Assembly (NCBI GenBank): GCA_938029725.1
Contig: CALHGE010000031.1
Span: 1-64,000, forward strand
Reading direction: 5' to 3'
Length of the DNA stretch: 64,000 nucleotides
DNA from: an uncultured Flavobacteriaceae bacterium
GTDB lineage: Bacteria; Bacteroidota; Bacteroidia; Flavobacteriales; Flavobacteriaceae
Under the pieces are notes generated by a model. The model did not search any database, was not told where the DNA came from, and was given only the letters and a program-made list of their open reading frames with translations. Every line of letters starts with the position of its first letter. The stretch's first letter is position 1. Below, piece by piece: positions 1,560-22,586 of this stretch. Both the position numbers and the translations under genes were made by a program.

Positions 1560-2756
1560 TCAGATTTTGAAATTTTTCACCTTCGTGCTAAGTTTAAAGA
1601 GTGAGGCGAGCTCTAAGGTTATTTGGGTGATTTGGCTTATAGTTTTTGTGTTGTATTTTATAAATGTTTTAGAACTATTGGATGGTTTCCAACGCTGTAA
1701 TGGTTGTTCATAAATGAGTTTTTGAGCTGAATGACGGCCGTAGATTTTTTTCATTCTCATAAAAATTTCTACATCAAATAGCCATTTGGTAATAAATTTT
1801 TCGTTGAATAGTAACGATGCAATTTCACGATCCATGATTTTTGCACCACATTGGGTGTCCTTTAAAGGCATACCTAAAATCTTCTGAATAAGAACACTGA
1901 TCGTTTGCCGTGGCGTATGCTTATTTATATTTGTTCCTACTCGGACCATTCTTGAACCGCTAACAATTTTAAAATCAGAATTTTCAATTACGCTAACCAA
2001 GGCGTTGAAATCTTGGAAGTCAGTTGATAAATCGGCATCTAAAAAGCCGACATAGTCAAATTGTTGGTCTTTTGTGAGTCTTAACATTCCTTGGCGAATA
2101 GCTTCGGCTTTACCTACATTCTTTTTGCAGTTGTAAACACTAATGTTATCAGGGTTTGAATCTCTTAATTGCCTGAGAACAGATAGCGTATTATCAGAAC
2201 TACCATCGTTGACGAAACATAAATGATAGCCTATATTTTTATACGAAAAAGCCTTGAATTCTGAACGCAATAGTCTTTGCTCTTCATTAAAACAGGGTAT
2301 TACTAAGCCAACACAATTTTTTCGTAAAATTTGCTCTTCTAACTTTGCTTTTTGTAAGAATTCTTCAGAATGAGCTGTCCCGATGATACGTCTAACTCTC
2401 GCTGCCATTTCATCTAAGCTTACTGGTTTTTTTAAATAATCATTAATGCCAAGGTTGAAATTTTCAAGAATTACGGCTTCATCTGTATTTCCGGATAGTA
2501 CCAAAATAGGCGTATCTCGTTTCATAAAAACTCTGATATATTTGACCACTTCAATACCGGTGCATTGCACAAGTTCATTGCCAGACATTTCTGGCATGTT
2601 CATGTCTAGCAATACCAAATCAGGATTAAAAGAATTATATAAGAGTATTCCCTCTTCATTAGAACTGGCTGTTTTTACTTCATAACTTAGTTCGGTAAGT
2701 CTTTTTTTGATAGATGATAAGATCAATTGCTGATCGTCAATGGCTAAAATCTTCAT
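1560..2756 (-). CDS. Response-regulator receiver domain fused to a polyprenyl-phosphate sugar synthase-type GT2 (copy 1)
   Basis: Residues 1-125 form a CheY-like receiver domain with acidic pair D7/D8, phospho-acceptor D51, S88 and the K before P111. Residues from about 150 onward form a GT2 domain with VIPCFNEE, NDGSSDNT, the DADLSTDF metal-binding motif, DTQCGAKIM and FDVEIFMRM. These signatures match the dolichyl-/undecaprenyl-phosphate glucosyltransferase (ALG5/GtrB-like) branch. The inferred role is making a lipid-linked monosaccharide at the inner membrane under phosphorylation control. Unlike copy 2 (12152-13291), the receiver carries about 8 extra residues (NELVQCT region, 60-67) right after the MSG that follows D51. 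No DNA-binding output domain is present. Confidence 0.88.
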   Translation of the reverse strand: MKILAIDDQQLILSSIKKRLTELSYEVKTASSNEEGILLYNSFNPDLVLLDMNMPEMSGNELVQCTGIEVVKYIRVFMKRDTPILVLSGNTDEAVILENFNLGINDYLKKPVSLDEMAARVRRIIGTAHSEEFLQKAKLEEQILRKNCVGLVIPCFNEEQRLLRSEFKAFSYKNIGYHLCFVNDGSSDNTLSVLRQLRDSNPDNISVYNCKKNVGKAEAIRQGMLRLTKDQQFDYVGFLDADLSTDFQDFNALVSVIENSDFKIVSGSRMVRVGTNINKHTPRQTISVLIQKILGMPLKDTQCGAKIMDREIASLLFNEKFITKWLFDVEIFMRMKKIYGRHSAQKLIYEQPLQRWKPSNSSKTFIKYNTKTISQITQITLELASLFKLSTKVKNFKI

Positions 2757-3097
2757 AGGTTTAGATTTAAATTCACAATTGTTTAATTGCTGAAATCAAG
2801 GGGATTGGCTTGGTAACCAAGGCAAATATAGCTAGGGCTTATCTTCAGTTTTGTTAAAACAAGTTGATTCGTGAGTTGCTGTAGTTGTATCGCTATTTTA
2901 GTACGGTGGCTGAAATAGTACTTTAATGATACGCCCTATGAGCAAGCATCTCTTTTCAAGCGAAATAAATTGGAGTGGTTGCTCATTAGAAGTGAGGAAT
3001 TTCATAAATGCTTATTGTTATGTATAGGAGATTACACTATTTTTTTTAATTTAGTTGATGGGCCATTAGGTGCCTTTTTTAGCACTGAATAATGAAA

Positions 3098-3153
3098 ACA
3101 ATAATGGTGTAAGTATTTTTTTTTTAAAATGTAAACTATTCTACCATTATTGT
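3098..3153. repeat. 11-bp perfect inverted repeat, possible operator
   Basis: ACAATAATGGT at 3098-3108 is exactly mirrored by ACCATTATTGT at 3143-3153, with a T-rich 34-nt spacer. The right arm ends 13 bp before the putative -7 box of the downstream gene, so it covers the -33 area. A dimeric or looped regulator site, or a transcript hairpin, is possible. Confidence 0.5.
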
Positions 3154-3166
3154 AATCCTCATCTTA

Positions 3167-3174
3167 TATATTTG
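3167..3174 (+). promoter_or_regulatory. Bacteroidetes-type -7 box (TATATTTG)
   Basis: TATATTTG matches the Bacteroidetes TAnnTTTG consensus exactly and lies 35 bp before the TTG start of the large membrane protein. The -33 element is weak: a TTG occurs at an unfavourable spacing of about 14 bp. Assignment rests mainly on the -7 match and position. Confidence 0.4.
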
Positions 3175-3209
3175 ATACCTTTAGTAAAATTTTGATTCTT
3201 GCATAAATT

Positions 3210-6200
3210 TTGAAGAAAAAAACCAATACCCTCTTAATATTAGCTTTAATTGTAGGGCTTGCTTTCCACGGTTCCGCTATTTTTTTCACATTGGAATCTA
3301 CCTATGATGCCTTAATTCATTTATTTTTTGCCGATCATTATGCCAATAGCTGGTTTGACCCCTGGGAATATAGGTGGTATACAGGCTTTACCGTGCAATC
3401 ATACCCTCCACTTGTTCACCAAGTGATTGGAATACTCTCCTACATAGGCGGTCTAAAATTTGGAATGTACACGGTAGGCTTACTGGCTATTGTATTATTT
3501 ATAACAGGTGCCTATCGATACACCTTATTAATGACTGGCAGTAGAAGAATAGCGGGTTATGGTGCTGTTTTAGCTGTTTTCTCTTCCACTTTTGTAGAAA
3601 CACTGCATATTTTTGGGCAATTACCAAGTATCACAGCCCTATCCATTTTACTGCATTCCATGACAGAAATTTACCTGTGGATAAAAACAGGTAAAATGCG
3701 ATACTTTATTACCTCTGTTACTATGCTTGCGGTAACGGTTACTTCGCATCATGTAACGCCTATTTTCGGAATGGTATTTTTTATAGCACCCTTAATAGGA
3801 ATGGCAGTTATGGATGCCTCTAGAGAGCGTGTAAATTCGTATAAAAAACTCTCTTTTAAGATTTTTTGGAATACCACATTAAAGCATTTTTGGAGAATAG
3901 CAAAATTTGGAGGAACTGCTATCTTTTTAATCGTTTTCTGTATTTTTCCGTATTGGTACAATTCCAAAAGAAACCCAATTAATCAAGTCGCTATCCCGCA
4001 TGGATCACGCGATAATTTCTTAGAAATCACTTCATCTGGATTGGTGTTTTTTATAATTCCATGGGGCGTTTTTCTGTTTGTTTTGCCGTATTTCTTTTAT
4101 AGATATTTTAGTAAAAGATATGTATTCTTTGGCTTGTCTTTTGCACTTCTAACCATCTTAGGAACTGGCGGTACAACGCCCATTCCTTTAATGATGCTAG
4201 GAGAAACGGCATTTAACATTCTTACTTTAGACAGGTTTACCCTTTGGGCAACTATAATGGCCCTGCCAATTTTTGCTGAGTTTGCATTTAGAATGGTGGA
4301 AGGGGATTTAAAGGTTTTGATACAAGAAAAATTTGGAGGTGTTTATCACAGAGTCTTAGGCGGTCTCATAGCTGGTGGCATGTTATTCATGGTACTATTT
4401 ACTATGACCTTAGGCTATTTTAGACCTTCACAACCTGCTAAAATTAAAATGCTCCCTATTGTTAACTTTTTAGGAGCAGATTCACATGATGCTTGGCGCT
4501 ATTTACCTTTAGGCTTTGGTGATCAAATGGCATGGCTTTCTGCACAAACCAATGCAATGACAGTGGATGGAAATTACCACTCAGCGCGGCGATTACCAGA
4601 GTTAACCACAAGGGCTATTGAACGCATAGAAAATTCTAAATTTAGAGGTGTAGAGGGTATCGGGTCGCTGCAGCAGTTTTTAACCGTACCGGAAAAATAT
4701 AATTTAAAATATATTTTCTCAAATGATAAATTCTACGACCCCATACTTTACTATTGCGGATGGCAGCGTCTGCAGCAATTAGAGAATGGTATTATGGTTT
4801 GGGAAAAACTAAATGTGGCACCCATACCGCAAATTATGCCCAAACAAGATGTTCCTGCCGTAATGAAATTAATGTGGGGTATAATTCCACTAACCACCGT
4901 GTTATTAGCAATTTTCGTTAATATTCAAATGATTTGGGTACGGCTATTAAAGTCTAAAAAATTAGAAGAGCATTCTTTTATGAAGCTTGCGTTGCCTTTT
5001 AAAAAGTTTCCGCCTAAACTTTTAACATTTTCTCATTGGTGGGCACTGCTAATGCTGCTGTGCTTGAGTTATGGTATGTATCTGTTTTATGTAAAAAACG
5101 TAGCGCAACTATCTCCAAACAATGTAGTAGAGTCTTACTATGATGCTTTAGATTTTAAAGATTTTTCTAGAGCTCACGCCTACCTTGACCCAGAAAATAA
5201 CATTGACATTGCCCAGTATATGTTAGAGGTCTCTGTAACCGACGGAATTTTAAGTTCGTATGCCAAATTAGATTCTTTGCATATTGAAATTTATGATGAG
5301 ACGAAGAATAGTGCAAAAGCCAAAGTATCAAGTATGTGGATTACGCCACTAGAAAATATTTTTAATGATGATTATCATGAACTTGTAAAAAGAGATAGTA
5401 AATGGTACCTAAAACCATCAAAAGTTGATAATGATATACCACCAGATCAACTTTTTACTGCCAATGGTACTACTTTTTATAATCACGGTAGAAGAAAGAT
5501 TACCACACAAGAAACCTATCATGAAGATGTTTTAAAACAACCGGTGTTAGAAATTCTTTCAGCTAAACTCGTAAAATACAAAGGGCAGTATAGCATTGTC
5601 GGAGAGCTACAAAACGTTGATAATACACCAGCAGATATTGTGATTAAGGCTACACTTTACAACGATAACAATACAGAACTTGCCAATTACAATGCTAAAC
5701 ATCAAATTAAGCACAAGTTAATGCCTAAAGAAACAACAACGTTTAAAATAAACTTTGAAGGTATTGCTTGGTCCTCTACCAAAGACACGCTACCACCAAC
5801 GTTTGACCCAGACCAGTTTACTCCAATTAGCTTTGAAGAACAACCAACCAAATTCAATTTACAGTCTGCAGGAAATACGGCGAACACCGATTTGTATAAG
5901 CAGGTAGCCTTGCAAGATTTAGAGTATACAGACCAAGGTTTTAATGGTGTTCTATTTAATTCAGGAGTACAAGAAGTGACCATACCTCAGTTAATAATTT
6001 CTTACTATGATGATCAAAATAAATTACTCTGGGTAGATCATAAATTTGTTACTGAAGGAGTTCGCATTCAGCGAAAACAATTTTTCAACTACAAGCCGTT
6101 AGATTTAGATAGTCTTAAAATTATAAATAGTAGCTTAAAGAACTGCTTTGTAAATGGATTGCCTAATGAAGCTATAGCAGAAAAAATATTTCCGAATAGA

Positions 6201-6299
6201 AAAATAATACATGGCGCAAAGCAAACCCAACCATTTAAAGGAAAGGGCTTCGACTACTTAAAGTTTGAAATAAACAGTTATATCGGTAACCCCAAATAG
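3210..6299 (+). CDS. Large GT-C-like polytopic membrane glycosyltransferase with periplasmic NTF2-like and beta domains
   Basis: The 1029-residue product begins with a membrane segment and then a loop containing the acidic motif TYDALIHLF (D33) and QSYPPLVH. This arrangement resembles GT-C enzymes, which use polyprenyl-phosphate sugars. About ten to twelve membrane segments occur up to residue ~410, and two more lie near 555 and 620. The C-terminal 400 residues are predicted periplasmic: an NTF2-like module (about 632-740), a FxLYD-like beta domain (about 780-865) and a further beta domain (900-1000). The start is TTG, with no nearby ATG. Together with the two REC-GT2 proteins it could transfer a lipid-linked sugar outside the membrane. 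The GT-C assignment is from motif and topology only. Confidence 0.65.
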   Translation: MKKKTNTLLILALIVGLAFHGSAIFFTLESTYDALIHLFFADHYANSWFDPWEYRWYTGFTVQSYPPLVHQVIGILSYIGGLKFGMYTVGLLAIVLFITGAYRYTLLMTGSRRIAGYGAVLAVFSSTFVETLHIFGQLPSITALSILLHSMTEIYLWIKTGKMRYFITSVTMLAVTVTSHHVTPIFGMVFFIAPLIGMAVMDASRERVNSYKKLSFKIFWNTTLKHFWRIAKFGGTAIFLIVFCIFPYWYNSKRNPINQVAIPHGSRDNFLEITSSGLVFFIIPWGVFLFVLPYFFYRYFSKRYVFFGLSFALLTILGTGGTTPIPLMMLGETAFNILTLDRFTLWATIMALPIFAEFAFRMVEGDLKVLIQEKFGGVYHRVLGGLIAGGMLFMVLFTMTLGYFRPSQPAKIKMLPIVNFLGADSHDAWRYLPLGFGDQMAWLSAQTNAMTVDGNYHSARRLPELTTRAIERIENSKFRGVEGIGSLQQFLTVPEKYNLKYIFSNDKFYDPILYYCGWQRLQQLENGIMVWEKLNVAPIPQIMPKQDVPAVMKLMWGIIPLTTVLLAIFVNIQMIWVRLLKSKKLEEHSFMKLALPFKKFPPKLLTFSHWWALLMLLCLSYGMYLFYVKNVAQLSPNNVVESYYDALDFKDFSRAHAYLDPENNIDIAQYMLEVSVTDGILSSYAKLDSLHIEIYDETKNSAKAKVSSMWITPLENIFNDDYHELVKRDSKWYLKPSKVDNDIPPDQLFTANGTTFYNHGRRKITTQETYHEDVLKQPVLEILSAKLVKYKGQYSIVGELQNVDNTPADIVIKATLYNDNNTELANYNAKHQIKHKLMPKETTTFKINFEGIAWSSTKDTLPPTFDPDQFTPISFEEQPTKFNLQSAGNTANTDLYKQVALQDLEYTDQGFNGVLFNSGVQEVTIPQLIISYYDDQNKLLWVDHKFVTEGVRIQRKQFFNYKPLDLDSLKIINSSLKNCFVNGLPNEAIAEKIFPNRKIIHGAKQTQPFKGKGFDYLKFEINSYIGNPK

Positions 6300-6300
6300 C

Positions 6301-7539
6301 ATGCGATTTAAAGTTATTATAGTTTTAAGTTTATTTCTATTCGGCTGTTCTTCTAAAAAAGAACCAGAAATAAAACAAAGTGTTAGCCCAAAAGTGAGCC
6401 TAGTCGCCATGCAAAACAGTTTTGTTGCGGGTGATTCGATTTCCTTACTTTTTAAAACAGATACCCCGACTAACAAATTCAAATTACAAATTAAAAACGC
6501 ATATGGAAATACGCTTTTAGCATCAAAAAAAGATAGCAGTAAACTACTTTTATTTAAGCTTCCTAAAAACTTCACTAGACTCGCTGGCCCGTGCCGATGG
6601 AAACTTTTACAAGAAGAAAAAACGGTATTACAAGGTGAATTTGAAATTGGTGTAAACGCAACCAAGGCTACGTTTATTGAGTCTTATTTTGGACCAAGAA
6701 GTATTACTGCAGGATATAATGATTTTTCTATGCTAACAATTGCTCCAACAGATGTGTATGATAACCCTTTGGATAATGGCACAGAAGTAACCGTTAAATA
6801 TCAGTTTTTAGAGAATATTAGTGAGCTGAAAATTACAAGTCAAAACTTTATGGCCTGGTACAATGTAAGGTCTACCACAAAATCTGGAAGAATATTAGTA
6901 TCATCAGAATGCAATGGTACTACTTCAAAAGAGCTTGCCACTATTGTTTATCCTTCCAATGCTACTAATTTCTCTATAAGTGCATCTAGTGCACATAATT
7001 TTGCCGACGGTAATCAAATAGTAACGTTTACATCAGATATTATTCGAGATGAGTTTGGCAATATGGTAAGTAATGGTACTTTGGTGACCTTCATTATAAA
7101 AAATGAAAAAGATTCTTATTTGTATACCATAGGTACCACGCTAAACGGTATTGTTGAAGCTAGAACTTTACACCCAGATCAAGCTTCACAATGGGAGATA
7201 CAGGCATTTGTTACTGGCGCAGCAGAGAGTAATACTGCAGCGTTTTCGTTTAAGCCAGCCATTAAAGATTATCCTGTTTATTTCTCTAAAGGAAATAGAA
7301 ATATAGCCATTGGTCCTTTTGAAAGTTTTATGAAGCAGCTTATTCCTGATGGTCTGCTTTTGCAACTTGATATCTATGATGCCAACGGAGAGTTTATCGA
7401 ATCAAAAAAAACAACTACTAAAAACGGAGCTTGTACTATATTCTTAGGGGAACATTTTTTGCCTGAAGGTGAGTATACACTAAAATTAGAGGCGGCAGGA
7501 ATCACAAAAGAATTTACAAAAAACATACATGGGTATTAA
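6301..7539 (+). CDS. Lipoprotein with bacterial Ig-like (Big_1-type) domains
   Basis: A short signal peptide ends in the lipobox LFGC (C16), predicting lipid anchoring. The mature part is beta-rich. Around residues 215-270 it reads like an invasin/intimin-type Ig domain (NFADGNQIVTF followed by DEFGNMVSNGT), and a similar unit precedes it (about 125-210). No catalytic motif is seen. It starts one base after the stop of the GT-C-like gene and overlaps the next gene by 11 bp, so the three genes form one operon. A structural or scaffold role at the glycan machinery in the periplasm is inferred. Confidence 0.75.
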   Translation: MRFKVIIVLSLFLFGCSSKKEPEIKQSVSPKVSLVAMQNSFVAGDSISLLFKTDTPTNKFKLQIKNAYGNTLLASKKDSSKLLLFKLPKNFTRLAGPCRWKLLQEEKTVLQGEFEIGVNATKATFIESYFGPRSITAGYNDFSMLTIAPTDVYDNPLDNGTEVTVKYQFLENISELKITSQNFMAWYNVRSTTKSGRILVSSECNGTTSKELATIVYPSNATNFSISASSAHNFADGNQIVTFTSDIIRDEFGNMVSNGTLVTFIIKNEKDSYLYTIGTTLNGIVEARTLHPDQASQWEIQAFVTGAAESNTAAFSFKPAIKDYPVYFSKGNRNIAIGPFESFMKQLIPDGLLLQLDIYDANGEFIESKKTTTKNGACTIFLGEHFLPEGEYTLKLEAAGITKEFTKNIHGY

Positions 7540-9076
7540 ATTAAATAAAGCACTCTACAGAACGGTACTGATCGTCACATTTTTGGGGATCAACGCCCTT
7601 GTGATTTATGGACTAGGTGCTGCTTGGGCTTTTATGAATACTGGAGCAGACAAAACTTCTATGTTGCATTTAGAAGTTCCTATGGAAGATGTATATAAAC
7701 CAAGTTTTGAATGGACCAACTTAGAAAACCCAGGAAGACCTATGGAAGTACAGGCCTTAGGCGAGATTACTAATGATTACATGAATGCTTGGCATGTTCG
7801 TAATATAGCCTATAAGAAAAATGACCCCTACGGTATCGAAGATTTTTACACCGATAGCGCTAGAGTAAGGCTTTATGATAATATAGACCTAAATAAAAAA
7901 AATAAAAACTGGTTTAAACGAACAACCTTAAGTCATAATTCTTCTTTAGATTTTTATACTGCAGATGGTACGATGGTTGTTTTCAAAGATTACAATGTTG
8001 AGCAATACCAGGAGACTTATGAAGGAGAGAAACTAGTCTTTAAAGAAAAGGATACCACCAGCTATCAAGTAATGATGCTTTTAGAAGATGGTTTTTGGCG
8101 TATAAGACACTTAAAAGAAATTCCTACACCAAGAGATACTTCTAAAGTGGAGGAGCGAAATATAGAAGATAAAATAAAAAAAATTGAAGCTATAAAGGGC
8201 ATTAACTACTACCCGAAAGATTCGCCTTGGGATACCTTTGGAAAAAGATTTAATGATAGTATCATTAACCAAGATTTTAAAATTATTCAAAATATGGGTT
8301 TAAATACTATACGGGTATTTATACAATATGAAGATTTTGGGAAAAACAGCGTAAATTATAAGAAACTCGAGCTACTTAAAATACTTCTAGATACGGCAGA
8401 AGCGAATAAGCTAGATGTGCTGATCACTTTATTTGATTTCTACGGAGATTATGATGTTTCTAATTGGACACTTACCCATAGGCATGCAGAAACTATTGTG
8501 AATGCTGTTAAAGATCATCCGGCCCTTTTAGGATGGGATATAAAAAATGAGCCCGATTTAGATTTTGATTCTCGTGGGCGTTTACGGGTGTTAAGCTGGC
8601 TAGAACAAATGATAGAAAATATTAAGAAGTGGGATAAAAACCATCCCGTTACCATAGGTTGGTCTTCTCCAGAAGCTGGCATAGAACTGGCCGATAAAGT
8701 AGATTTTGTATCCTACCATTATTACAGAGAAATTCAGAACTATAAAAAAGCATACGACAGCTTGAATGCTGTTGTACCAAACAAACCCAAAGTACTTCAA
8801 GAGTATGGCATGTCTTCATATAAAGGGCTATGGAATTTATATACAGGAGCCGATGAACAAGGACAATTAGATTACTACGTAGCGATGCAAAAAATACTGA
8901 AGGATAATAATATTCCTTATATGTTTTGGACCTTATATGATTTTAAAAAAGTTCCTAGCGCTGTGGCAGGAAGCTTACCGTGGAAAACTAAAAAACAACA
9001 TTTCTTTGGTTGCTTAGATACCTTAGGAAATAAAAAACCGGTATACTTTGAATTAGCAGAAAAAAACAGGGAATGA
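7529..9076 (+). CDS. Membrane-anchored clan GH-A glycoside hydrolase with NTF2-like domain
   Basis: The 515-residue protein has one N-terminal membrane segment (about 12-35), an NTF2-like region (about 75-200) and a TIM-barrel glycosidase of cellulase/GH5-like type (about 215-505). The two catalytic glutamates are visible: acid/base E341 in IKNEPDLD, and nucleophile E425 in LQEYGMSS. NTIRVF and the terminal FWTLYDF fit the same clan. Periplasmic, anchored hydrolases are common in exopolysaccharide operons, where they trim or release polymer. Its presence downstream of the glycosyltransferase supports such a role. The family number cannot be fixed from sequence reading. Confidence 0.8.
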   Translation: MGIKLNKALYRTVLIVTFLGINALVIYGLGAAWAFMNTGADKTSMLHLEVPMEDVYKPSFEWTNLENPGRPMEVQALGEITNDYMNAWHVRNIAYKKNDPYGIEDFYTDSARVRLYDNIDLNKKNKNWFKRTTLSHNSSLDFYTADGTMVVFKDYNVEQYQETYEGEKLVFKEKDTTSYQVMMLLEDGFWRIRHLKEIPTPRDTSKVEERNIEDKIKKIEAIKGINYYPKDSPWDTFGKRFNDSIINQDFKIIQNMGLNTIRVFIQYEDFGKNSVNYKKLELLKILLDTAEANKLDVLITLFDFYGDYDVSNWTLTHRHAETIVNAVKDHPALLGWDIKNEPDLDFDSRGRLRVLSWLEQMIENIKKWDKNHPVTIGWSSPEAGIELADKVDFVSYHYYREIQNYKKAYDSLNAVVPNKPKVLQEYGMSSYKGLWNLYTGADEQGQLDYYVAMQKILKDNNIPYMFWTLYDFKKVPSAVAGSLPWKTKKQHFFGCLDTLGNKKPVYFELAEKNRE

Positions 9077-9099
9077 CTTTTTAGTCATTCCCTGTTTTT
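9065..9099. terminator. Bidirectional terminator between convergent genes
   Basis: A 14-bp perfect stem (9065-9078 with 9083-9096), a TTTT loop and a flanking T-run lie between the hydrolase and the convergent glycosyltransferase gene. The hydrolase stop codon (9074-9076) is inside the left arm. Confidence 0.88.
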
Positions 9100-9114
9100 A
9101 AACTAAACCATATT

Positions 9115-10353
9115 TTACATCTGTTGTTCTTCTAACTCGCTGATTTTCTTTGGTAGCGTAAGTTCAAAACCCTCTGATTTTGATGCTTTTATTGCTTTGA
9201 AATAGTCTACATACATTCTGGTAATTTCAGACATTGGTAAAGAACAGGCGGCTTTGTAGTTTGTTTTACCCAATTGAATTCGATATTCTTCTTGAGTAAT
9301 AATTTTCTCAATCGCGTCTGCTAAAGATGCGGTACTTGCTGGGTCAAAAAATTCTCCGGTGTAGCCTTCTTCTCGAACTAAAATACTCAAATCGCCCAAG
9401 TCGGGGAGTACTACGGCATTACCGTAACTTCCAGCTTGGTGCAGTACACCTGAACTTCCGGTAGTTGAAGTGTACGGAAATACAGTGACCGCGCTTTCAC
9501 CAAATATTCTCGGTACATCTTCTTCGGCCACATATCCGGTAAATTTTATTTGTGGTACATGGCTATATTTTTTTTTCATTGAATCTAAATAACCAGGTGT
9601 ATTCGGACTGTCGGTACCAGCGATAACAATTTCAATATCTTCAGTAGTTCTCGTACGAATCAATTCAATTGCTTCGATTAAAATCTCTACTTTTTTATAG
9701 GTTCCGAACTTGCCAAAGGCCATAACTTGTTTTGGCCCTGCAGGCAATAGATAACTTGGTTCAGGAGGTGTTTCAAAAGAACCATGTGGAATTAATGCGA
9801 TGTTTCGCGCTTTATATTTCTTTTCAAGAATAGTTACATATTTACTAATAGTAACAGCTAGTATATCTGATGCTAAAACAAAGCGCGTTAATGTGGTGCC
9901 TATAAAGTTATAGACTTTTTGTAATACCTTATTTTTTGTAAATCCGGCGTTTTCCAAATCTACTTGTTCAAGAATATTATGAAGTAGTGAAATTGTAGGA
10001 ATACCTTTTAATCTGCATACCATAGGAAGCATTAGGCCTAGCGCTGCTGGAATTTTTTTATCTCCAAATTTTAAAAATTGGAGGTTAAATAAAACGGCAT
10101 CAGGTTTGGTTTTAGAAATGACTTTAGATATTTTTAAAAGGTTGGTATAATCATTAAAATTCCAACATTCCTTTACCGTTATTTTACAACCCTGTTCTTC
10201 AAATTTTAGGTCTTTCGCTTCAGCCGTAACATCAGTAATGAGAACAATCTCAGTCACTTCTTCTTGAAGTCTAAAATGTTTAACTAAGTGATATCCGTAT
10301 TCAGTGAGGGTTACTTTGCTCGGTGGGTAAGCCGTGACAATTGCTAATTTCAT
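9115..10353 (-). CDS. GT4-family glycosyltransferase
   Basis: This 412-residue cytoplasmic enzyme has a two-Rossmann GT-B layout. The N-terminal half opens with IVTAYPPSK and contains ISLLHN. The C-terminal donor domain has VMAFGKFGTYKK, IVIAGTDSP and IKFTGYV. The usual EX7E region reads SSGVLHQAGSYGN, with glutamine where the second glutamate normally stands, a variant that may still be active. It is the last gene of the minus-strand group STAS-flippase-GT4 and probably adds sugars to the glycan. The Pel system also pairs a GT4 with a Wzx-like transporter, but homology to PelF is not shown. Confidence 0.85.
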   Translation of the reverse strand: MKLAIVTAYPPSKVTLTEYGYHLVKHFRLQEEVTEIVLITDVTAEAKDLKFEEQGCKITVKECWNFNDYTNLLKISKVISKTKPDAVLFNLQFLKFGDKKIPAALGLMLPMVCRLKGIPTISLLHNILEQVDLENAGFTKNKVLQKVYNFIGTTLTRFVLASDILAVTISKYVTILEKKYKARNIALIPHGSFETPPEPSYLLPAGPKQVMAFGKFGTYKKVEILIEAIELIRTRTTEDIEIVIAGTDSPNTPGYLDSMKKKYSHVPQIKFTGYVAEEDVPRIFGESAVTVFPYTSTTGSSGVLHQAGSYGNAVVLPDLGDLSILVREEGYTGEFFDPASTASLADAIEKIITQEEYRIQLGKTNYKAACSLPMSEITRMYVDYFKAIKASKSEGFELTLPKKISELEEQQM

Positions 10354-10478
10354 AGGGTTAAGTTTATACTAGTAAATTGGTTATTTATAATTTAAAGTTT
10401 CGATTAAAATGATTTGTACTATACAGCTTCACCTCAGCTAAAATTTCGCTTTAGCTACGAGTAAAATATTTTAAATCA

Positions 10479-11732
10479 CTAGCTCTCGAGGGGTTTATTT
10501 GCATAGGTTTTATGTACAAAATAAATGAGCTGTGCAATCAATAAACCGACCATTGCGATGATTTGAACTTGAACAACAACGGCAAGGCTGTCGTGAAAAA
10601 ACACCACTAAAAGAATCTGTGATACTCCTAGTACACCTGAAAATATAACAGGTACGTATTGGTCAAGGGATAAAAAGTAATAGGCGAAAATATTTGAAAT
10701 AGCGAACAATGAAGTGGCTAGTGCATATTGCCAAAGTAAACCTGCCATTGAAATATAGGCTTCTCCAAACAAAATAGAAATTATAAGTTCTGGAAGTAGA
10801 TAACAGGTACTAACAATGAGTAGTGACAGCACAGAAATATAGCCCACATATTTAAAAAGAATGGGGGCCGTTGGTTCTCCATCTTTTTGTTTTTGTACTA
10901 CTGCTGGTAGCAAAAGCATTACAAACATCCATGCTACAAAGTATACTGCTCTTCCAATTAATGCCAATGAAGCATAGAGCCCGGCATCAAGCGCATCAAA
11001 GTAGTGCTTTACTAACAATATGTCACTATTGTTGATTAGAATCTGAGTGAGCTCGTAACAGGCGGTAATTACCATGAATCGTGTTACTTGTTTTTGATAT
11101 TCTGGAGCTAGTTCTCTAGTTTTGAAAAAAGAAAAGTCTTTGAGGTTAGTAGGTATTAACCCGAAAAAGAAAGAGGCAACAATACCTAATGCGACGATAA
11201 GAGAAGGCTCTAAAGGAAGCAACATCAAGGCAATGATCGTTAGTATCAATCTACTCCACATTTCCGTTTGATAGGTAATAGAAAGCCTATTAAAATCTTG
11301 TTTACCTTGATACTTACCTCTGTTGACACTCATAAAAAAATAGAGCGGAACACCAAAGCCAAAGGCTGTAAACATCCATGAATTTTGTGTATTAAATAGT
11401 AGTTGAAGATCTTTTGCAAAAAAGAGAACTAGGATGCCTACGGCAATTCCGAAAATAGCAGAATACCGATACATTTTATTTTGAAAAGCAATCCATTGCT
11501 TATTTTCGAAAAGTACGGCGAACTTTGCCGTCGCTAATTGAAAGGTCATGCCCATAAATGATAAAACCAATAAAAGCGTAATTAATAGGGCTGCATCAGC
11601 AAAAGCTTCAGGCCCCAAAAGACGACCTAAAACTAAGTTATACAGGTAGTTGCCAACATTAACAATTAGCACACTAGCCATAAAAACCTGTTCAGGAGAT
11701 ACTTTTTTTAAGGTGAGCCTAAATGCGGTCAT
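10479..11732 (-). CDS. Wzx/MATE-like polysaccharide flippase
   Basis: The 417-residue hydrophobic protein has about 12 membrane segments and an N-terminal LGRLLGPEAFADA motif typical of O-antigen/polysaccharide transporters of the MOP superfamily. It should move lipid-linked or nascent glycan across the inner membrane. Its start overlaps the 3' end of the STAS gene by 14 bp, showing translational coupling. A 7-bp hairpin (AGCTAAA/TTTAGCT, 10436-10456) follows the gene. The neighbours (GT4, GT2 fusions, TPR-barrel exporter) support a surface-glycan role. Confidence 0.85.
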   Translation of the reverse strand: MTAFRLTLKKVSPEQVFMASVLIVNVGNYLYNLVLGRLLGPEAFADAALLITLLLVLSFMGMTFQLATAKFAVLFENKQWIAFQNKMYRYSAIFGIAVGILVLFFAKDLQLLFNTQNSWMFTAFGFGVPLYFFMSVNRGKYQGKQDFNRLSITYQTEMWSRLILTIIALMLLPLEPSLIVALGIVASFFFGLIPTNLKDFSFFKTRELAPEYQKQVTRFMVITACYELTQILINNSDILLVKHYFDALDAGLYASLALIGRAVYFVAWMFVMLLLPAVVQKQKDGEPTAPILFKYVGYISVLSLLIVSTCYLLPELIISILFGEAYISMAGLLWQYALATSLFAISNIFAYYFLSLDQYVPVIFSGVLGVSQILLVVFFHDSLAVVVQVQIIAMVGLLIAQLIYFVHKTYANKPLES

Positions 11733-12021
11733 GGCTAAGAATGTATGAGGTTTTAGTAGACTTCATCGTCATTGCTATATTTTTGTTATCTCTACCAATA
11801 ATTTGAATAATCCGATTACTTTTCATAAAATCAAGGTATAGTTGCTCGATTTCAAATGCACCGCCAGACTCCATATAAGTGACATCATCTAGGTTTAAAA
11901 TAATTTCATCAAATTCTAGTAAGAAAGAATGAAAATGTTGCTTGAGCATTACAGCGTTTTCAGACGATAGTTCACCTACCACATTAATTACACTGTCATT
12001 CTGGTTTACTTCTAAAGCCAT
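11719..12021 (-). CDS. STAS-domain (anti-sigma antagonist-like) protein with altered phosphosite
   Basis: The 100-residue protein follows the STAS pattern: VINVVGEL near the start, IILNLDDVTYM, then a helix. In SpoIIAA-type proteins the DSSG motif carries the phosphorylated serine. Here the motif reads ESGG (residues 51-54), so the phosphorylatable serine position appears to be glycine (G53). It may bind a partner constitutively or use a different switch. It begins the flippase-GT4 operon and overlaps the flippase gene by 14 bp, which links partner-switching regulation to glycan export. Confidence 0.78.
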   Translation of the reverse strand: MALEVNQNDSVINVVGELSSENAVMLKQHFHSFLLEFDEIILNLDDVTYMESGGAFEIEQLYLDFMKSNRIIQIIGRDNKNIAMTMKSTKTSYILSHDRI

Positions 12022-12151
12022 AATTTTTTATTTTGGGGGTTAAGATTTAATTCAATATGCGAATATCCTTTTTACAAAAAAGGGAATTACATTTAGTAAA
12101 CGGATGATGATTTTCTGCAAACCAATGGTATGACATTACAGGGTATCGTTT

Positions 12152-13291
12152 TTATCTATAGGTAAACGCTATTTGCGCAAGTTGACCAACAATTTTCACA
12201 GAATCTTTCATAGATAGTTTAGAACCATCTGCATGAATCCATCGTTTGAGGGGTTGCTCACAAATAAATTGCTGAACATTAGCCTTGCCATAGTGTTTAC
12301 GCATTCTCATGAAAATTTCTACATCGAATATCCATTTCGTAATAAAGGGTTTTGTGAAGAGCAATGGAATGATATCTTTTCGCATGATTTTAGCGCCACA
12401 TTGCGTGTCATTAAAGGGCATTTGAAGAATGGTTCTTATAATAAGATTTATAGTCATACTTATTATTTTCCGTGCCGATTCTTTTGTTATGTCGGCGCCC
12501 ATTCTGGCCATTCTCGAACCACTGACAATTTTAAAATCAGAATCTTCTAATGTTTCTACTAAGTCATGAAAGTCTCTAAAATCGGTCGACAAATCTGCAT
12601 CTAAAAAACCAATGTAATCAAGTTGCGGGTCTTTGGCTAAATGAAGCATTCCCTGACGTACTGCTTCTGCTTTACCACCATTTTTTTCACAGTCAAAAAC
12701 GCTAATGTGACTCTTGTTCGCCAGTTTTAGTTCTTCTAGTACCTGAAGTGTATTATCTGTACTACCATCATTCACAAAACATAAGTGATACCCTAGGTTT
12801 TTGTGTGCAAATTCTTTGAATTCATCACTTGATAGTCGTTCTTCCTCATTATAACATGGTATTACCACCCCAACACAGTTCTTTTGTAATAATTGTGTTT
12901 CAGTTGTGTTCGTTAAAATGGTATCCGTTTCAGGAGCACCTATAAGCCTCTTAATTCGTGCTGCCATTTCTTCTAGGCTCACTGGCTTTTTCATGTAGTC
13001 TTCAATACCCAAAGCGAAACCATCAATTATAACATTTTCTTCCGTATTACCTGACATGACCAAAATTGGGGTTTTTGATTTTTTGGTTGTGCGAATATGT
13101 TTAACCACATCTAAGCCAGATATACCAGGCATATTAATATCAACAAGAACCAAATCTGGCTTAAAAGATTCAAATAATGAAATTCCTTTTTCTCCAGAAT
13201 CTGCGACTGCTACAGTATAGCCAATTTCTAAGAGTCTTTTTTCTACTGATAATAAAATTAGTTGTTGGTCATCAATGGCTAATATTTTCAT
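12152..13291 (-). CDS. Response-regulator receiver domain fused to a polyprenyl-phosphate sugar synthase-type GT2 (copy 2)
   Basis: This protein has the same architecture as the 1560-2756 gene, and the two are clear paralogues. The receiver domain (1-120) has D7/D8, phospho-acceptor D51, S80 and K102. The GT2 domain starts near 134 with VVIPCYNEEE and shows NDGSTDNT, DADLSTDF, SGSRMARMGA, DTQCGAKIM and FDVEIFMRM. This copy lacks the 8-residue insertion of copy 1 and so represents the standard receiver. The leader has TACTTAAAACCCAAA three bases before the ATG, identical to that of the receiver gene at 22988. The inferred product is a lipid-linked hexose for the GT-C-like protein. Confidence 0.9.
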   Translation of the reverse strand: MKILAIDDQQLILLSVEKRLLEIGYTVAVADSGEKGISLFESFKPDLVLVDINMPGISGLDVVKHIRTTKKSKTPILVMSGNTEENVIIDGFALGIEDYMKKPVSLEEMAARIKRLIGAPETDTILTNTTETQLLQKNCVGVVIPCYNEEERLSSDEFKEFAHKNLGYHLCFVNDGSTDNTLQVLEELKLANKSHISVFDCEKNGGKAEAVRQGMLHLAKDPQLDYIGFLDADLSTDFRDFHDLVETLEDSDFKIVSGSRMARMGADITKESARKIISMTINLIIRTILQMPFNDTQCGAKIMRKDIIPLLFTKPFITKWIFDVEIFMRMRKHYGKANVQQFICEQPLKRWIHADGSKLSMKDSVKIVGQLAQIAFTYR

Positions 13292-14128
13292 TAATTTGGG
13301 TTTTAAGTATAGAAAAGATATATGATTAAATACCTTTTCGGGGGGTTAATTATAGGATTGATTTATTGTCATTTGTAATCCATATCTTACATAAAACGAA
13401 TTATTAGCGTAATAGTATGTTAGGAAGCCCTTATTCGTTCAAATGCACTTTTGGGTAGCATCTTTATTAATTCTAGTTTCGTTCCTTTTAAAGTGTTTTC
13501 ATAGTTTATATATTAATAGGTGTTAAAATAAAAATATTGTTAGGGCAGCCGCCACTTAACCCAAAAGCAGGCTACCCAAAACAACATTTCAAGGGAATTG
13601 ACTTAACTATTATTTTATTTTTTTGTTTACTCCAAGTACATATCATTTTTGATTCTCTAAGAATAGGAATCATTTTTTATTTTTTAAACCAATTACATAG
13701 AATGTATTACAACTAGGTTTGACCTTGACATATATTTTAAAAGAGTAATAGCAGCCTTTGTATCAAATTCAAGAACCTTCTCTAGATCTAGAGGTATTAA
13801 TGATAGCCCCTTGACTAGCTTGCTCATCGCTGATTTGAAATTTCAAAAGGTTTCTTTAACCAAAGTTTCGTTTACATTGCACCCATCTTAGTTTTTCAAT
13901 AGCTGTTATGACATCCTTATTATATTTACCTTCTTCTGAGAACGAGACAAATATCTTAAACATAGCTTTTGTAAATCGGCATTTTCGTTCGATAGAAGTT
14001 TAGTGTAGATGAATGAACCATATCGTACTTCCAAAGCCAAAAGGTCACCACTACCTTTATAATTGAAATCAATACTAATAAATACAAACAATTAACGTTA
14101 TGTATCTGTAGTAAAAATCTCACTTCTT
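13292..14128. other. Gene-free divergent intergenic region
   Basis: No gene is supported in these 837 bases. A 61-codon TTG-started frame at 13906-14091 (minus) has no domain and poor coding character. A perfect 11-bp inverted repeat, TTTTGGGTAGC (13449-13459) and GCTACCCAAAA (13571-13581), brackets 111 bp. The region probably holds control sequences for the divergent REC-GT2 copy 2 and TPR-barrel genes. Confidence 0.5.
13295..13309 (-). promoter_or_regulatory. Shared leader motif TACTTAAAACCCAAA (copy before REC-GT2 copy 2)
   Basis: This 15-nt sequence lies three bases before the ATG of REC-GT2 copy 2. It is identical, with identical spacing, to the leader of the CheY-like gene at 22587-22988. 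Related forms (CTTAACCC) precede the STAS and GT4 genes. It may be a translation-enhancing leader or the trace of common descent. Confidence 0.5.
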
Positions 14129-16189
14129 ATGATTCGCTATTATCTCATTATTATTACCTTCTTTTCATTTTCAATTTTGCTTGCTCAAAGTAAGATGCAA
14201 GAGGGCTTTAGCCTTCTTGAAAAAGGAGATTTCGAAGAAGCAGAGGTATTCTTTGCTGAGTATTTAAAAACAGATTCTGAAAATAAAACAGCACTGCTTT
14301 GTTATGGTCGTGCGGTTGGCTTAAGTGGCGAACCTGTCAAAGCAACCGGCTTATTTGCAGAATTGCTGGAAACCTACCCAACCGATTTTGAAGTAGCAAT
14401 TAATTATAATGAATCATTTTTATGGGCAAAGAAGTATGAAGAAGCAAAACCCTTATACGCCAAAATGGTGGAAGATTATCCAACTAAATTTGCCGCGGTA
14501 TTAGGCTATGCGAATACACTAAGTAATCTTAAGGAGTTTGAAGAGGCACTCAAGTTAGTAGAAAAAGCACTAGAACTAGAGCCTGATAATGCAAGTGCAA
14601 AGATTTCGCGTAAATACATGAGATTAGGCTTAGCCAGTACCTTTGTAAATAAACAGAATTATGCCAGCGGAGAAAAATGGCTAAAAGAAATTTTTGTTGA
14701 TTTTCCTGATGATAAAGATGCCCTACTCAACTTATCAAATCTATACCTTATTACGAAGCAGGTGGATAGTGCTAAAGTGATGTACAAACGATATGCTAGT
14801 TCGCCTAAAGATTCTATAACGGCTCTAAACGGTATTGCCTTGGCAGAACATATAGGAGAGAATGACAAACAGGCATTACTCGTTGTTAAATCTTCTAAAG
14901 CTAAGGTGCTGCAATTTGATGATTTTGAGTTAACTGAACGCACTTACGAACGGTACATACAGGCATTGATTTGGAATCGAAAATTTATTAGTGCCAAACG
15001 ACAAATAGATAGTTTAGAACAGGTACATAAGAATCGGAATTGGATTCATGCGCTTAAAGCCACACTCGGACTTTATATTGGGGAGTCTAAAAATAGTATT
15101 GCAAGTTATGATGCTATTCTTGCGAATGATAGTACCTCTTTTGATGGTAATTTAGGAAAAGCGAATGCGATGTTCGCAGCAGATAGAATTATACCAGCAT
15201 ATCAATCGGCATCGAATACACTGAAATTTTATAAAAATCAAAAAGATGCTCTCGGCTTTATTGAAAAGCTCGACTTGATTTATACCCCTTTTGTAGAAGA
15301 GCATGTCGCTTATACTTTTGACAATGGTAACAATGTAGCTTTTTCTACAAATACTACGGTCAACCTACCCTTGTCCACTAAATTTCGCACAACGGTTAGT
15401 TACCAATTCAGAACAACTGAAAATACAGTTACTTTAAATAAAGCGAATTCTCGCGTTTTATTGGCTGGCTTGGAATATAAACTATTCCCTAAAACAAATT
15501 TTAAAGGAGTATTCGGAATCAATAATTCACGGTTTATGACAGAGGCATATACGCAGCCTGTCTTAGATTTAAAACTGCAGACACAACCTTTTAAATTACA
15601 AAATCTAGATCTCGGCTATCAGCGAGAGGTTCAGAGTTTTAATGCAGAACTTATTGAACGTGAAATCGTACTCAATCATTTTGGACTCAACTATAATCTA
15701 GGCACTAATTTTAACTTAGGTTGGTATACCCAGCTCATGCATACCCAGCAAAGTGATGAAAACGTAAGAAACCTATTGTTTACATCTTTGTATTATAATC
15801 TACTTCGTAAACCTGCGTTGAAAGTGGGTATCAATTATCAATATGTAGCTTTTAAAGATCAAGTACCAACCATTTATTTTAGTCCAGAAATATACCAGGC
15901 CGTTGAATTTTTTGCTGATTTAAGAGGTCAATTTTCTGATAAAACAAGCTATATGATTAGCGCAGCTACTGGTTTACAGCAAGTAGAAGAAGACCCGCAA
16001 ACAGCTATTTTTAGAGCAGAAACAAGTATACAACATCAACATTCTAAACGCCTGAGTTTTCAAGCCTATGGTAAGTATAGTAATATTGCTTCGGCTACTG
16101 CTGCTGGTTTTGAATTTACTGAGGTAGGGGTGAAGGTGAAATGGTTGTTTGCAAAAATGCCGTTATTTTCAATACAACTTGATGAGTAA
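14129..16189 (+). CDS. TPR plus outer-membrane beta-barrel protein, putative glycan exporter
   Basis: A signal peptide (about 1-19, ending LLAQ) is followed by tetratricopeptide-like helical repeats from about 20 to 370. One clear unit is EEALKLVEKALELEPDN near 145. The final 300 residues alternate polar and hydrophobic residues with aromatic strand ends, as in a beta-barrel, and finish near the C-terminus with a strand and short tail. PelB, PgaA and BcsC of exopolysaccharide systems have the same TPR-then-barrel layout. Together with the flippase and glycosyltransferases on the other strand, this suggests polymer export across the outer membrane. Sequence homology to those proteins is not established. 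Confidence 0.75.
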   Translation: MIRYYLIIITFFSFSILLAQSKMQEGFSLLEKGDFEEAEVFFAEYLKTDSENKTALLCYGRAVGLSGEPVKATGLFAELLETYPTDFEVAINYNESFLWAKKYEEAKPLYAKMVEDYPTKFAAVLGYANTLSNLKEFEEALKLVEKALELEPDNASAKISRKYMRLGLASTFVNKQNYASGEKWLKEIFVDFPDDKDALLNLSNLYLITKQVDSAKVMYKRYASSPKDSITALNGIALAEHIGENDKQALLVVKSSKAKVLQFDDFELTERTYERYIQALIWNRKFISAKRQIDSLEQVHKNRNWIHALKATLGLYIGESKNSIASYDAILANDSTSFDGNLGKANAMFAADRIIPAYQSASNTLKFYKNQKDALGFIEKLDLIYTPFVEEHVAYTFDNGNNVAFSTNTTVNLPLSTKFRTTVSYQFRTTENTVTLNKANSRVLLAGLEYKLFPKTNFKGVFGINNSRFMTEAYTQPVLDLKLQTQPFKLQNLDLGYQREVQSFNAELIEREIVLNHFGLNYNLGTNFNLGWYTQLMHTQQSDENVRNLLFTSLYYNLLRKPALKVGINYQYVAFKDQVPTIYFSPEIYQAVEFFADLRGQFSDKTSYMISAATGLQQVEEDPQTAIFRAETSIQHQHSKRLSFQAYGKYSNIASATAAGFEFTEVGVKVKWLFAKMPLFSIQLDE

Positions 16190-17161: not shown

Positions 17162-17872
17162 TTACAGTAGATTTAATCGGCGCATCAACTCTGGCCTATT
17201 AGAGCGGCTTATGGGTATGACGTTCTTCTCAATTAAAACGCTATTATCTTCAATGTCAATTATCTTGCTAAAATTTATGATATATGATCTGTGAATCTGT
17301 AAAAAGAGCGCTGCTGGTAATTTGGAATTAATTTTTTTTAAGGTTGTATGTACCAAAAATTCTGAAGTTTCAGTTTTTACATTTATGTAATCACCTTTGG
17401 CTTCAATAAGCAAGATCTCTTTGTATTTTAACTTAATCAAACGCCGGTCAATATTAATATAGAGATCTTCTCCAAGCGCATTTTCGCTGCCTGTACCCTT
17501 ATTTTGTTTTGGAGGAATACTTGAGCTACTATTAATTTTTTGAACACATTTTTCGAAGCGCTTTGGAGTTATTGGCTTGACCAAGTAATCAATAATCATC
17601 TCGTATTCGTAGGACGCTATAGCGAAATCAGGATCTGATGTTGTAATTACTACCTTTGGAGGATTCTTTAAAGTTTGCAGAAAATCAATACCAGAAAACC
17701 CAGGCATGTGTAAATCAAGAAAGATCACATCGACTTCTTGTCGGTTCAAAAATTTAATTGCCTCAATAGCATTTTCAAATTCTTGAACTACCTCTAAATC
17801 AGGCAAAGTGCTGCAGAGTTTTTTTACAATTGCTCTTGACGACGCTTCATCATCAATGATGATACACTTCAT
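17162..17872 (-). CDS. LytTR-family response regulator
   Basis: Residues 1-120 are a receiver domain with acidic D7/D8, phospho-acceptor D53 (IFLDLHMPG) and K98 in VKPITPKRF. Residues from about 140 are a LytTR DNA-binding domain, with ILLIEAKGDYINV and FLQIHRSYIINF. It would bind target promoters when phosphorylated. It is the last gene of a seven-gene minus-strand operon, 2 bp after the Hpt gene, and is the likely transcriptional output of the phosphorelay. Its targets are not known. The adjacent glycan locus is a candidate by position only. Confidence 0.92.
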   Translation of the reverse strand: MKCIIIDDEASSRAIVKKLCSTLPDLEVVQEFENAIEAIKFLNRQEVDVIFLDLHMPGFSGIDFLQTLKNPPKVVITTSDPDFAIASYEYEMIIDYLVKPITPKRFEKCVQKINSSSSIPPKQNKGTGSENALGEDLYINIDRRLIKLKYKEILLIEAKGDYINVKTETSEFLVHTTLKKINSKLPAALFLQIHRSYIINFSKIIDIEDNSVLIEKNVIPISRSNRPELMRRLNLL

Positions 17873-17874
17873 AC

Positions 17875-18192
17875 TTAGATCGTTTTAAGGTAATTTTCAA
17901 TAGTATTTATGATTTTCATGAAATCATCTTTTAGTCTTTCATTACCTAAACGTAATTCTTCTTCAAAAATTACAGCAATCTTATAGCTTTCTTCCAAGCC
18001 TAGGATATTCATTTTATGTTTGAGCTTATGCACATTCTGAGACGCCGCATCTGTTCTATTATTATCAATATTATCAATATACTCTAATTTTTCTATTGGA
18101 AACTCATCCTTTAGAATTTTGACAAAATTGGCCTTGAACCCCAAATCATCACCAGAGAGCTCATCAATATAATTCATGTTAGGAATTTCCAT
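17875..18192 (-). CDS. Hpt (histidine phosphotransfer) protein
   Basis: This 105-residue helical protein has the motif VHKLKHKMNILGL, in which H55 is the probable phosphorylated histidine of an Hpt four-helix bundle. It sits between a histidine kinase (4 bp upstream) and the LytTR regulator (2 bp downstream). The order predicts phosphate transfer from kinase through Hpt to one or both response regulators of the operon. No other domain is present, so it is a stand-alone phosphotransfer module. Confidence 0.82.
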   Translation of the reverse strand: MEIPNMNYIDELSGDDLGFKANFVKILKDEFPIEKLEYIDNIDNNRTDAASQNVHKLKHKMNILGLEESYKIAVIFEEELRLGNERLKDDFMKIINTIENYLKTI

Positions 18193-18196
18193 ATTC

Positions 18197-20379: not shown

Positions 20380-20381
20380 AA

Positions 20382-22509: not shown

Positions 22510-22586
22510 ATATTTTATTTTAAAAACATGAAAGTAGGAAGAATATTACTTAAATTTAATTTTTTGTTGTGAAGCCACTATTTTTG

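Follow-up and report, generated by a model that had tools for sequence, protein, structure and literature searches.

Background

The control of biofilm polymers has been described mostly through cyclic di-GMP (c-di-GMP), and the Flavobacteriaceae are abundant marine polysaccharide users. According to the sections consulted of two papers (PMC12369376, PMC8738867), polysaccharide in Vibrio fischeri is controlled by the haem protein H-NOX, which binds nitric oxide (NO), through phosphotransfer, and the review PMC8738867 names there, as outputs of H-NOX, c-di-GMP, quorum sensing and gene expression. Here we analyse a stretch of 64,000 nucleotides from an uncultured Flavobacteriaceae bacterium (hereafter the window; positions 1-64000 of contig CALHGE010000031.1, in a draft assembly of 3.80 Mb that is 92% complete), in which a set of putative surface-polymer genes lies beside a predicted NO-sensing phosphorelay.

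A preliminary description of the window had proposed the nine genes within 1560-16189 as a new exopolysaccharide system governed by receiver-domain fusions. All nine are intact open reading frames (ORFs), and Pfam backs most of the labels given to them. That description ended at 16189 and missed the seven minus-strand genes directly past this limit, at 17162-22988, which encode an H-NOX/FIST/kinase/Hpt relay. This adjacent relay is likely the input to the polymer half. On balance, and with modest confidence, we regard the region as one functional unit, in which an NO phosphorelay controls surface-polymer synthesis without c-di-GMP, via a LytTR regulator and via proteins in which a receiver domain (REC) is fused to a family 2 glycosyltransferase (REC-GT2). 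The genes of the two halves are as follows.

1560..2756, minus strand: REC-GT2 copy A, beside the GT-C gene (Pfam Response_reg 8e-23, Glycos_transf_2 1e-22; D7, D8, D51, S80, K102 and the GT2 motifs present)
3210..6299, plus strand: GT-C-like membrane protein, 1029 aa, with C-terminal beta domains (AlphaFold2 (AF2) model with weak Foldseek matches; FxLYD domain)
6301..7539, plus strand: lipoprotein with Ig-like Pfam matches (Invasin_D3, FlgD_ig); LFGC lipobox by eye
7529..9076, plus strand: membrane-anchored GH5/GH2-like (clan GH-A) hydrolase (Cellulase PF00150 6.5e-12; N-terminal anchor by eye)
9115..10353, minus strand: GT4 glycosyltransferase (PF13692 9e-19)
10479..11732, minus strand: Wzx-like flippase, Polysacc_synt_3 type by the Pfam matches of its orthologues
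11719..12021, minus strand: STAS-domain protein, its gene overlapping the flippase gene (PF01740 2e-7)
12152..13291, minus strand: REC-GT2 copy B, on the STAS/flippase side (Pfam REC and Glycos_transf_2; AF2 pLDDT 82.8)
14129..16189, plus strand: TPR protein with a predicted C-terminal outer-membrane barrel, candidate exporter (TPR_19 7e-21)
17162..17872, minus strand: LytTR response regulator (LytTR 8e-19, Response_reg 1e-17)
17875..18192, minus strand: Hpt-like phosphotransfer protein (VHKLKHK motif)
18197..19246, minus strand: histidine kinase 2 (HisKA/HATPase_c); absent from some relatives
19246..20379, minus strand: FIST-domain protein, candidate NosP-type NO sensor (FIST 2.5e-42, 145.4 bits; FIST_C 2e-33, 115.7 bits); absent from some relatives
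20382..21989, minus strand: PAS histidine kinase (HATPase_c 7e-26, PAS)
21967..22509, minus strand: H-NOX (haem NO-binding) protein (HNOB 4e-37, 128.1 bits against a curated cut-off of 25.5)
22587..22988, minus strand: single-domain receiver adjoining H-NOX (Response_reg 2.5e-22)

The genes for the GT-C-like protein, the lipoprotein and the hydrolase are consecutive on the plus strand, with ends that overlap or abut. The GT4, flippase and STAS genes and one REC-GT2 gene lie on the minus strand, as does the other REC-GT2 gene, which stands before the GT-C gene.

Linkage of the polymer genes to the relay

Linkage was assessed in 199 genomes of the same family, with E value cut-offs of 1e-40 for the GT-C gene and 1e-60 for GT2. 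The GT-C gene was found in 54 of them and H-NOX in 78, and H-NOX occurs in 49 of the 54 GT-C genomes (Fisher p 2e-20 over the 199 genomes, genome relatedness uncorrected). In 41 of these 49 genomes both genes are on one contig and in 8 on different contigs; when on one contig they are 11.1-32.1 kb apart in 40/41. The relay was found on the TPR side in 20/20 genomes examined first, which had been chosen as the best REC-GT2 matches, and a genome that is classed in another family of the same class (G348) has both halves together in the same order.

As a control we used ribB, which is present in 189/199 genomes and lies 3.8 kb from H-NOX in the window. Among the matches listed, 25 genomes carry ribB on the H-NOX contig (the window's own genome and 24 others), and in none of the 24 others, among them 16 GT-C genomes, does ribB come within 33 kb of H-NOX. 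Since ribB is not kept near H-NOX, the pairing of the two halves is held by selection or joint transfer and not by general synteny. Orthologues of the TauE and nitroreductase genes were likewise found at 0/52 H-NOX loci, where the available flank past the lone receiver varies.

In two genomes the stretch that separates the relay from the polymer genes encodes a DUF6923 protein ending in a type IX sorting tail (L067:9363-11954, L076:8919-11528).

Conservation of the polymer core

A GT2 match is present in 58/199 family genomes and extends into the REC domain in 46 of the 58. All 54 GT-C genomes have GT2; in 51 cases it is within 9 kb of the GT-C gene, and in the other 3 it is on a separate contig. 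When named genomes were scanned, at least 508 relatives of the GT-C protein emerged, from which 80 loci were kept; neighbourhoods were counted in the 69 of these that exceed 23 kb (loci L001-L037, L177-L182 and L203-L212 were left out of these counts). The genes for the GT-C-like protein, lipoprotein, GH5-like hydrolase, GT4, flippase and GT2 occur together in 69/69 of these long loci, so that the gene set proposed in the preliminary description does form a conserved neighbourhood across relatives and does not consist of scattered members. The REC fusion is present in 67/69 and the TPR protein, within the available flank, in 62/69; the STAS gene can be regarded as optional because it is present in 27/69. 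Among the 80 kept relatives are Maribacter, Zobellia, Cellulophaga, Arenibacter, Winogradskyella, Olleya, Lacinutrix, Aquimarina, Lutibacter and Flavobacterium gillisiae. In a sample of the phylum the GT-C gene was found in 12/395 genomes, 11 of which belong to the same family.

At the edge of the polymer half, the window encodes a 212 aa protein (hyp212, 597-1235) that is without a Pfam or NCBIfam match and was found in 0/69 long loci at the cut-offs used.

Receiver-glycosyltransferase fusions

Copies A and B are paralogues with 61% identity and the sole two REC-GT2 fusions found in the draft genome. The position of copy A, next to the GT-C gene, is the commonest among relatives; two fusions per locus, as in the window, were seen in 10/139 loci examined. 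In 110 REC-GT2 copies, which are not all independent as some genomes are counted twice from two collections, the receiver retains D8, D51, S80 and K102 in 110/110 and D7 in 109/110 (one D7E). With its DD pocket, phospho-acceptor Asp, Thr/Ser switch and Lys it thus has the residues of a receiver that is predicted to be phosphorylatable, in line with the preliminary description. The catalytic Asp motif of the GT2 domain is similarly retained, with D231 in 109/110 and D233 in 107/110 copies.

Residues were otherwise checked by alignment of 15 to 21 chosen orthologues per protein. The DAD and DTQCGAK motifs of GT2 are intact in 18/21 aligned copies, and the three exceptions all come from genomes that lack the GT-C gene: in G077 the DAD motif is altered and DTQCGAK intact, and in the degenerate homologues of G113 and G117 both motifs are lost while the receiver is complete (D7, D8, D51, S80, K102). 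Copy A has an 8-residue insertion shortly after the phospho-acceptor Asp, common to the copy of L050 only (2/21 aligned copies), and a diverged C-terminus.

Enzymes of the GtrB/ArnC/DPMS type synthesise polyprenyl-phosphate sugars, and outside the membrane these sugars serve as substrates of GT-C enzymes. The profile of the GT2 domain matches GtrB (6e-15), ArnC (1e-13) and dolichyl-phosphate mannose synthase (DPMS, 2e-10), and the fold of the AF2 model matches the same three enzymes, together with the receivers Spo0F and PhoP. By profile and fold the domain therefore resembles the polyprenyl-phosphate-sugar synthases, with putative sugar transfer, which agrees with its earlier assignment as a lipid-linked sugar synthase.

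Short proteins of about 165-215 aa are encoded near the relay or polymer genes in several genomes. They had been considered as receivers, a candidacy that was dropped because, aligned by eye, they look like no more than the N-terminal portion of GT2, with altered motifs. The proteins aligned by eye are:

L092:18189-18710
L095:16689-17183
L183:8073-8573
L187:11744-12388
L048:1047-1553
L054:10452-10964

The predicted NO-sensing relay

The proximal haem His H104 of H-NOX and Y133-x-S135-x-R137, an instance of YxSxR, which we take to be the H-NOX haem motif, are present in 18/18 orthologues. Position 142, which presumably corresponds to the distal Tyr of O2-binding proteins, is Leu or Phe in 18/18, which gives a hint, and only a hint, of NO selectivity; NO binding is predicted. 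H55 of the Hpt-like protein is present in 18/18 orthologues, and its surroundings are of the HxLK type, a helix with a conserved His that we take to be the Hpt phospho-His motif. The window protein matched 0 Pfam families, the Hpt model included, hence it is termed Hpt-like only. Of 52 H-NOX loci, at the cut-offs used, all 52 have the lone receiver, 43 have LytTR, 36 Hpt and 26 FIST.

Cyclic di-GMP

The preliminary description had noted that systems of this kind are often under c-di-GMP. A match to GGDEF, the diguanylate cyclase domain, was found in 0/54 GT-C genomes and not in the window's own genome; 4/199 family genomes match and 195/199 do not, and the same search was positive in 8/14 control genomes. 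Because none of the 54 GT-C genomes matches GGDEF, co-control of the polymer locus by GGDEF-made c-di-GMP is unsupported and unlikely.

Other genes of the polymer half

The assignment of the GT-C-like protein is weaker than that of GT2. Its Pfam match to PF10131 is weak (E 0.004, 16.0 bits, below the cut-off of 26.4), and a Foldseek search with its poor model (pLDDT 66) gave no match at or below 1e-3. The top matches were GT-C enzymes, with the oligosaccharyltransferase (OST) STT3 at 1.2e-3 (TM 0.25), AftA at 5e-3 (rank 5) and DPY19 at 1.7e-2, with the unrelated PBP2a and transglutaminase from rank 6. Profiles of the GT-C-like protein and of the flippase matched no sequence in the PDB. The window flippase has no Pfam match of its own at E 0.01; 10/18 orthologues match Polysacc_synt_3 (PF13440), the best at 7e-15.

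Both catalytic Glu residues of the hydrolase, E341 and E425, are present in 15/15 orthologues, and its profile matches an endoglucanase and a beta-glucuronidase in the PDB. The TPR part of the protein at 14129-16189 is certain. Its C-terminal barrel is a prediction only, because a PDB profile search of this part gave no solved relative (three chance-level rows, the best with E 0.69). A Bacteroidota-type promoter pattern gave 3 matches, equal to chance expectation, and an Rfam search of window positions 1-30000 gave none.

Other gene sets beside the relay

In 29 family genomes H-NOX is present but the GT-C gene is not, and the neighbourhoods of 28 of them were obtained (G112 was left out). In G034 a second polymer system follows the relay. 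Its genes encode, in turn, a UDP-glucose/GDP-mannose dehydrogenase, an epimerase, a receiver standing alone, a fusion of a receiver-like domain with a priming sugar transferase (PF02397), an outer-membrane efflux-type protein and a protein weakly like chain-length determinants. The priming-transferase fusion occurs in 11/199 genomes, of which 0/11 have the GT-C gene, and lies 6.7-10.1 kb from H-NOX in 8/11. The phospho-site of its receiver-like domain is Glu in most copies, and the separate receiver gene that adjoins the fusion is intact in 8/8. The feature is represented by:

L094:16234-17460 and 7 aligned orthologues: receiver-like domain (no phospho-acceptor Asp, often Glu) with priming sugar transferase; intact separate receiver gene adjacent

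In G090 an HlyD-type protein, a dehydrogenase, TackOD1 and GT2 are encoded after the relay; a TackOD1 domain protein amid putative polysaccharide genes adjoining the NO relay is seen at L193:7921-9321. G024, G087, G113 and G131 have a common third gene set beside the relay. Next to LytTR in L083, L192, L196 and L093, conserved proteins of about 215, 269, 913-1180, 203 and 210 aa are encoded, the first three within the available stretch in L093. This set gave no NCBIfam match (L192) and almost no Pfam match (L083), and L083 also carries a degenerate REC-GT2 with an intact receiver. The relay neighbours scanned are not clearly polysaccharide genes in G049 (amidohydrolase, porin, peptidase) and G083 (HlyD-type protein, oxidoreductase subunits, sulfate permease).

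Proposed mechanism and alternative explanations

In the mechanism that we propose, NO would bind H-NOX, and perhaps the FIST/NosP-type protein, and thereby change histidine kinase activity. Phosphate would pass from the kinases to the lone receiver, then to the Hpt-like protein and on to the receivers of LytTR and REC-GT2, so that transcription and the supply of lipid-phosphate sugar would both change. REC-GT2 would load sugar onto polyprenyl phosphate, GT4 would assemble a lipid-linked unit for the flippase to turn outward, and the GT-C enzyme would use lipid-phosphate sugar in the periplasm, with the anchored hydrolase trimming the polymer and the TPR-barrel protein exporting it. If the supply of lipid-phosphate sugar depends on receiver phosphorylation, NO would alter polymer output directly, without c-di-GMP. 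The sequences themselves establish which genes are there, their conservation and linkage, the intactness of the catalytic and phosphorylation residues and the lack of a GGDEF match. The direction and order of phosphotransfer, the sign of the NO effect on synthesis, the substrates of the enzymes and the nature of the polymer are parts of this scheme that we infer; the product of the polymer half is likely an exopolysaccharide rather than another surface glycan.

More tentatively, and with rather less than an even chance of being right, we suggest that the relay is a portable one, found in bacteria without c-di-GMP, which places phosphate onto receivers joined to, or working alongside, the enzymes that charge the lipid carrier with sugar, and that NO would thus gate synthesis at its first committed step. 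In evolution this relay would have been combined with the GT-C/REC-GT2 module, with a priming transferase and separate receiver, and possibly with a synthase-type module.

Several observations weigh against these proposals. In G100, the exception to the close linkage, both halves are kept at a distance of about 2 Mb. GT2 is without REC in 11/54 GT-C genomes, yet 10 of those 11 have H-NOX, so the pairing does not depend on the fusion. A further point is that 29 genomes have H-NOX but no GT-C gene, and many of the 28 obtained have no identified polymer genes beside H-NOX, among the ORFs scanned, which were only some of those present. The priming-transferase fusion is not beside H-NOX in 3/11 genomes (on another contig in G117 and G153, and without an H-NOX match in G082), and its receiver-like domain is without the phospho-site Asp (3/3 scored, and five more aligned copies by eye). 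A shared receiver specificity of both polymer systems was tested both ways and is unsupported, since REC from REC-GT2 and the separate receiver did not come out as mutual closest matches among the receivers of the genome. Finally, judged on titles and abstract openings of the papers listed, no report was found of an NO response, phosphotransfer or a polymer for this locus. The gating of synthesis by receiver phosphorylation, as first suggested in the preliminary description, is thus favoured by the retained residues and opposed by the REC-less GT2 proteins, with its partner specificity unsupported, and we keep it as a conjecture.

The main rival to direct gating is transcriptional control only, in which the NO relay would act on the polymer genes through LytTR, and the REC on GT2 would answer other kinases or serve docking or dimerisation. 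The frequency of LytTR at H-NOX loci (43/52) and the 11 GT-C genomes with REC-less GT2 speak for it, as does the H-NOX/HahK route to the syp polysaccharide of V. fischeri, which the sections consulted describe as phosphotransfer to the regulator SypG (PMC12369376, PMC8738867). We nevertheless consider it a doubtful, if serious, contender: the phosphorylation residues of REC-GT2 are kept in 110/110 copies bar the one D7E, and even G113 and G117, which lost the GT2 motifs, retain all five. Less likely still is a role of the glycosyl genes in protein O-glycosylation or in making a lipopolysaccharide/glycolipid rather than an exported polymer, with that glycan being under the NO relay. GT4, flippase and GtrB-like GT2 proteins also belong to glycan-modification systems, and the best Foldseek match of the GT-C-like protein is the oligosaccharyltransferase STT3; however, this match is weak, AftA at rank five is an arabinosyltransferase, and the anchored GH-A hydrolase with its two conserved Glu residues, the lipoprotein and the TPR protein are a better fit to polymer export. 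That the halves are adjacent by descent in a little-rearranged family, with no functional tie, appears very improbable. Nearly all members found are Flavobacteriaceae, in which synteny can be old, but the flanks are not kept (ribB 0/24, TauE and nitroreductase 0/52, hyp212 0/69) and the same relay adjoins different polymer modules.

Comparison with known systems

The Pel system comprises a GT4, a flippase-like protein, a lipoprotein, a hydrolase and a TPR-barrel protein, and its list of parts is similar to the set in the window. The window locus differs from Pel by REC-GT2, the GT-C-like protein and the lack of GGDEF. Pfam presumably includes models for PelG and PelF, neither of which was matched: flippase orthologues match Polysacc_synt_3 or Polysacc_synt and GT4 matches other models only, so that membership of Pel is rejected. 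Membership of the PNAG (Pga) system is rejected as well, with 38.6 bits for the PgaA model against a cut-off of 366.65 and 58.2 for PgaC against 422.3; none of the ten proteins scanned reached the cut-off of PgaA, PgaC or BcsC (BcsC 16.8 bits against 858). General family scans, none of them aimed at either system, gave no alginate or cellulose model at cut-off. The statement that the set as a whole does not match a known system has thus held so far as the Pel and PNAG models are concerned. According to the sections consulted, the exopolysaccharide cluster of Zunongwangia profunda encodes Wza-, Wzc- and Wzi-like proteins (PMC4332637), unlike the window locus.

The GT2 domain is like GtrB, ArnC and DPMS in profile and fold, to which the window proteins add an N-terminal receiver. 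A receiver joined to a glycosyltransferase domain is likewise found in MTH_548 of Methanobacteriaceae (PMC5847659), which is archaeal, has a BcsA-like glycosyltransferase (PF13641) and is presented in the consulted sections of that paper with no description of an NO relay.

H-NOX and FIST/NosP haem sensors that act on kinases are also components of the H-NOX/NosP-c-di-GMP pathways of Vibrio, Legionella and Shewanella, where the consulted sections name biofilm as the output (PMC8738867); unlike these pathways, the locus occurs in genomes of which 0/54 have a GGDEF match. No paper joining Flavobacteriaceae, nitric oxide and H-NOX was found in the literature search. Like the HnoX-HahK/syp system of V. 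fischeri (PMC12369376, PMC8738867, sections consulted), the locus combines H-NOX with a histidine kinase, a predicted phosphotransfer step and genes for a putative polysaccharide. The V. fischeri outputs given there are the response regulators SypG and SypE, whereas in the window a biosynthetic glycosyltransferase carries its own receiver, and relay and polymer genes adjoin. In our reading the locus is thus an NO relay for a surface polymer, among whose outputs there is probably a receiver-bearing glycosyltransferase, in a lineage nearly without GGDEF. The locus names a candidate polymer system, with a relative of its GT-C protein encoded in at least 508 genome stretches, and, if the proposal is true, a widespread coupling of NO sensing to receiver-glycosyltransferases would constitute a direct and testable route from a gas signal to a surface polymer.

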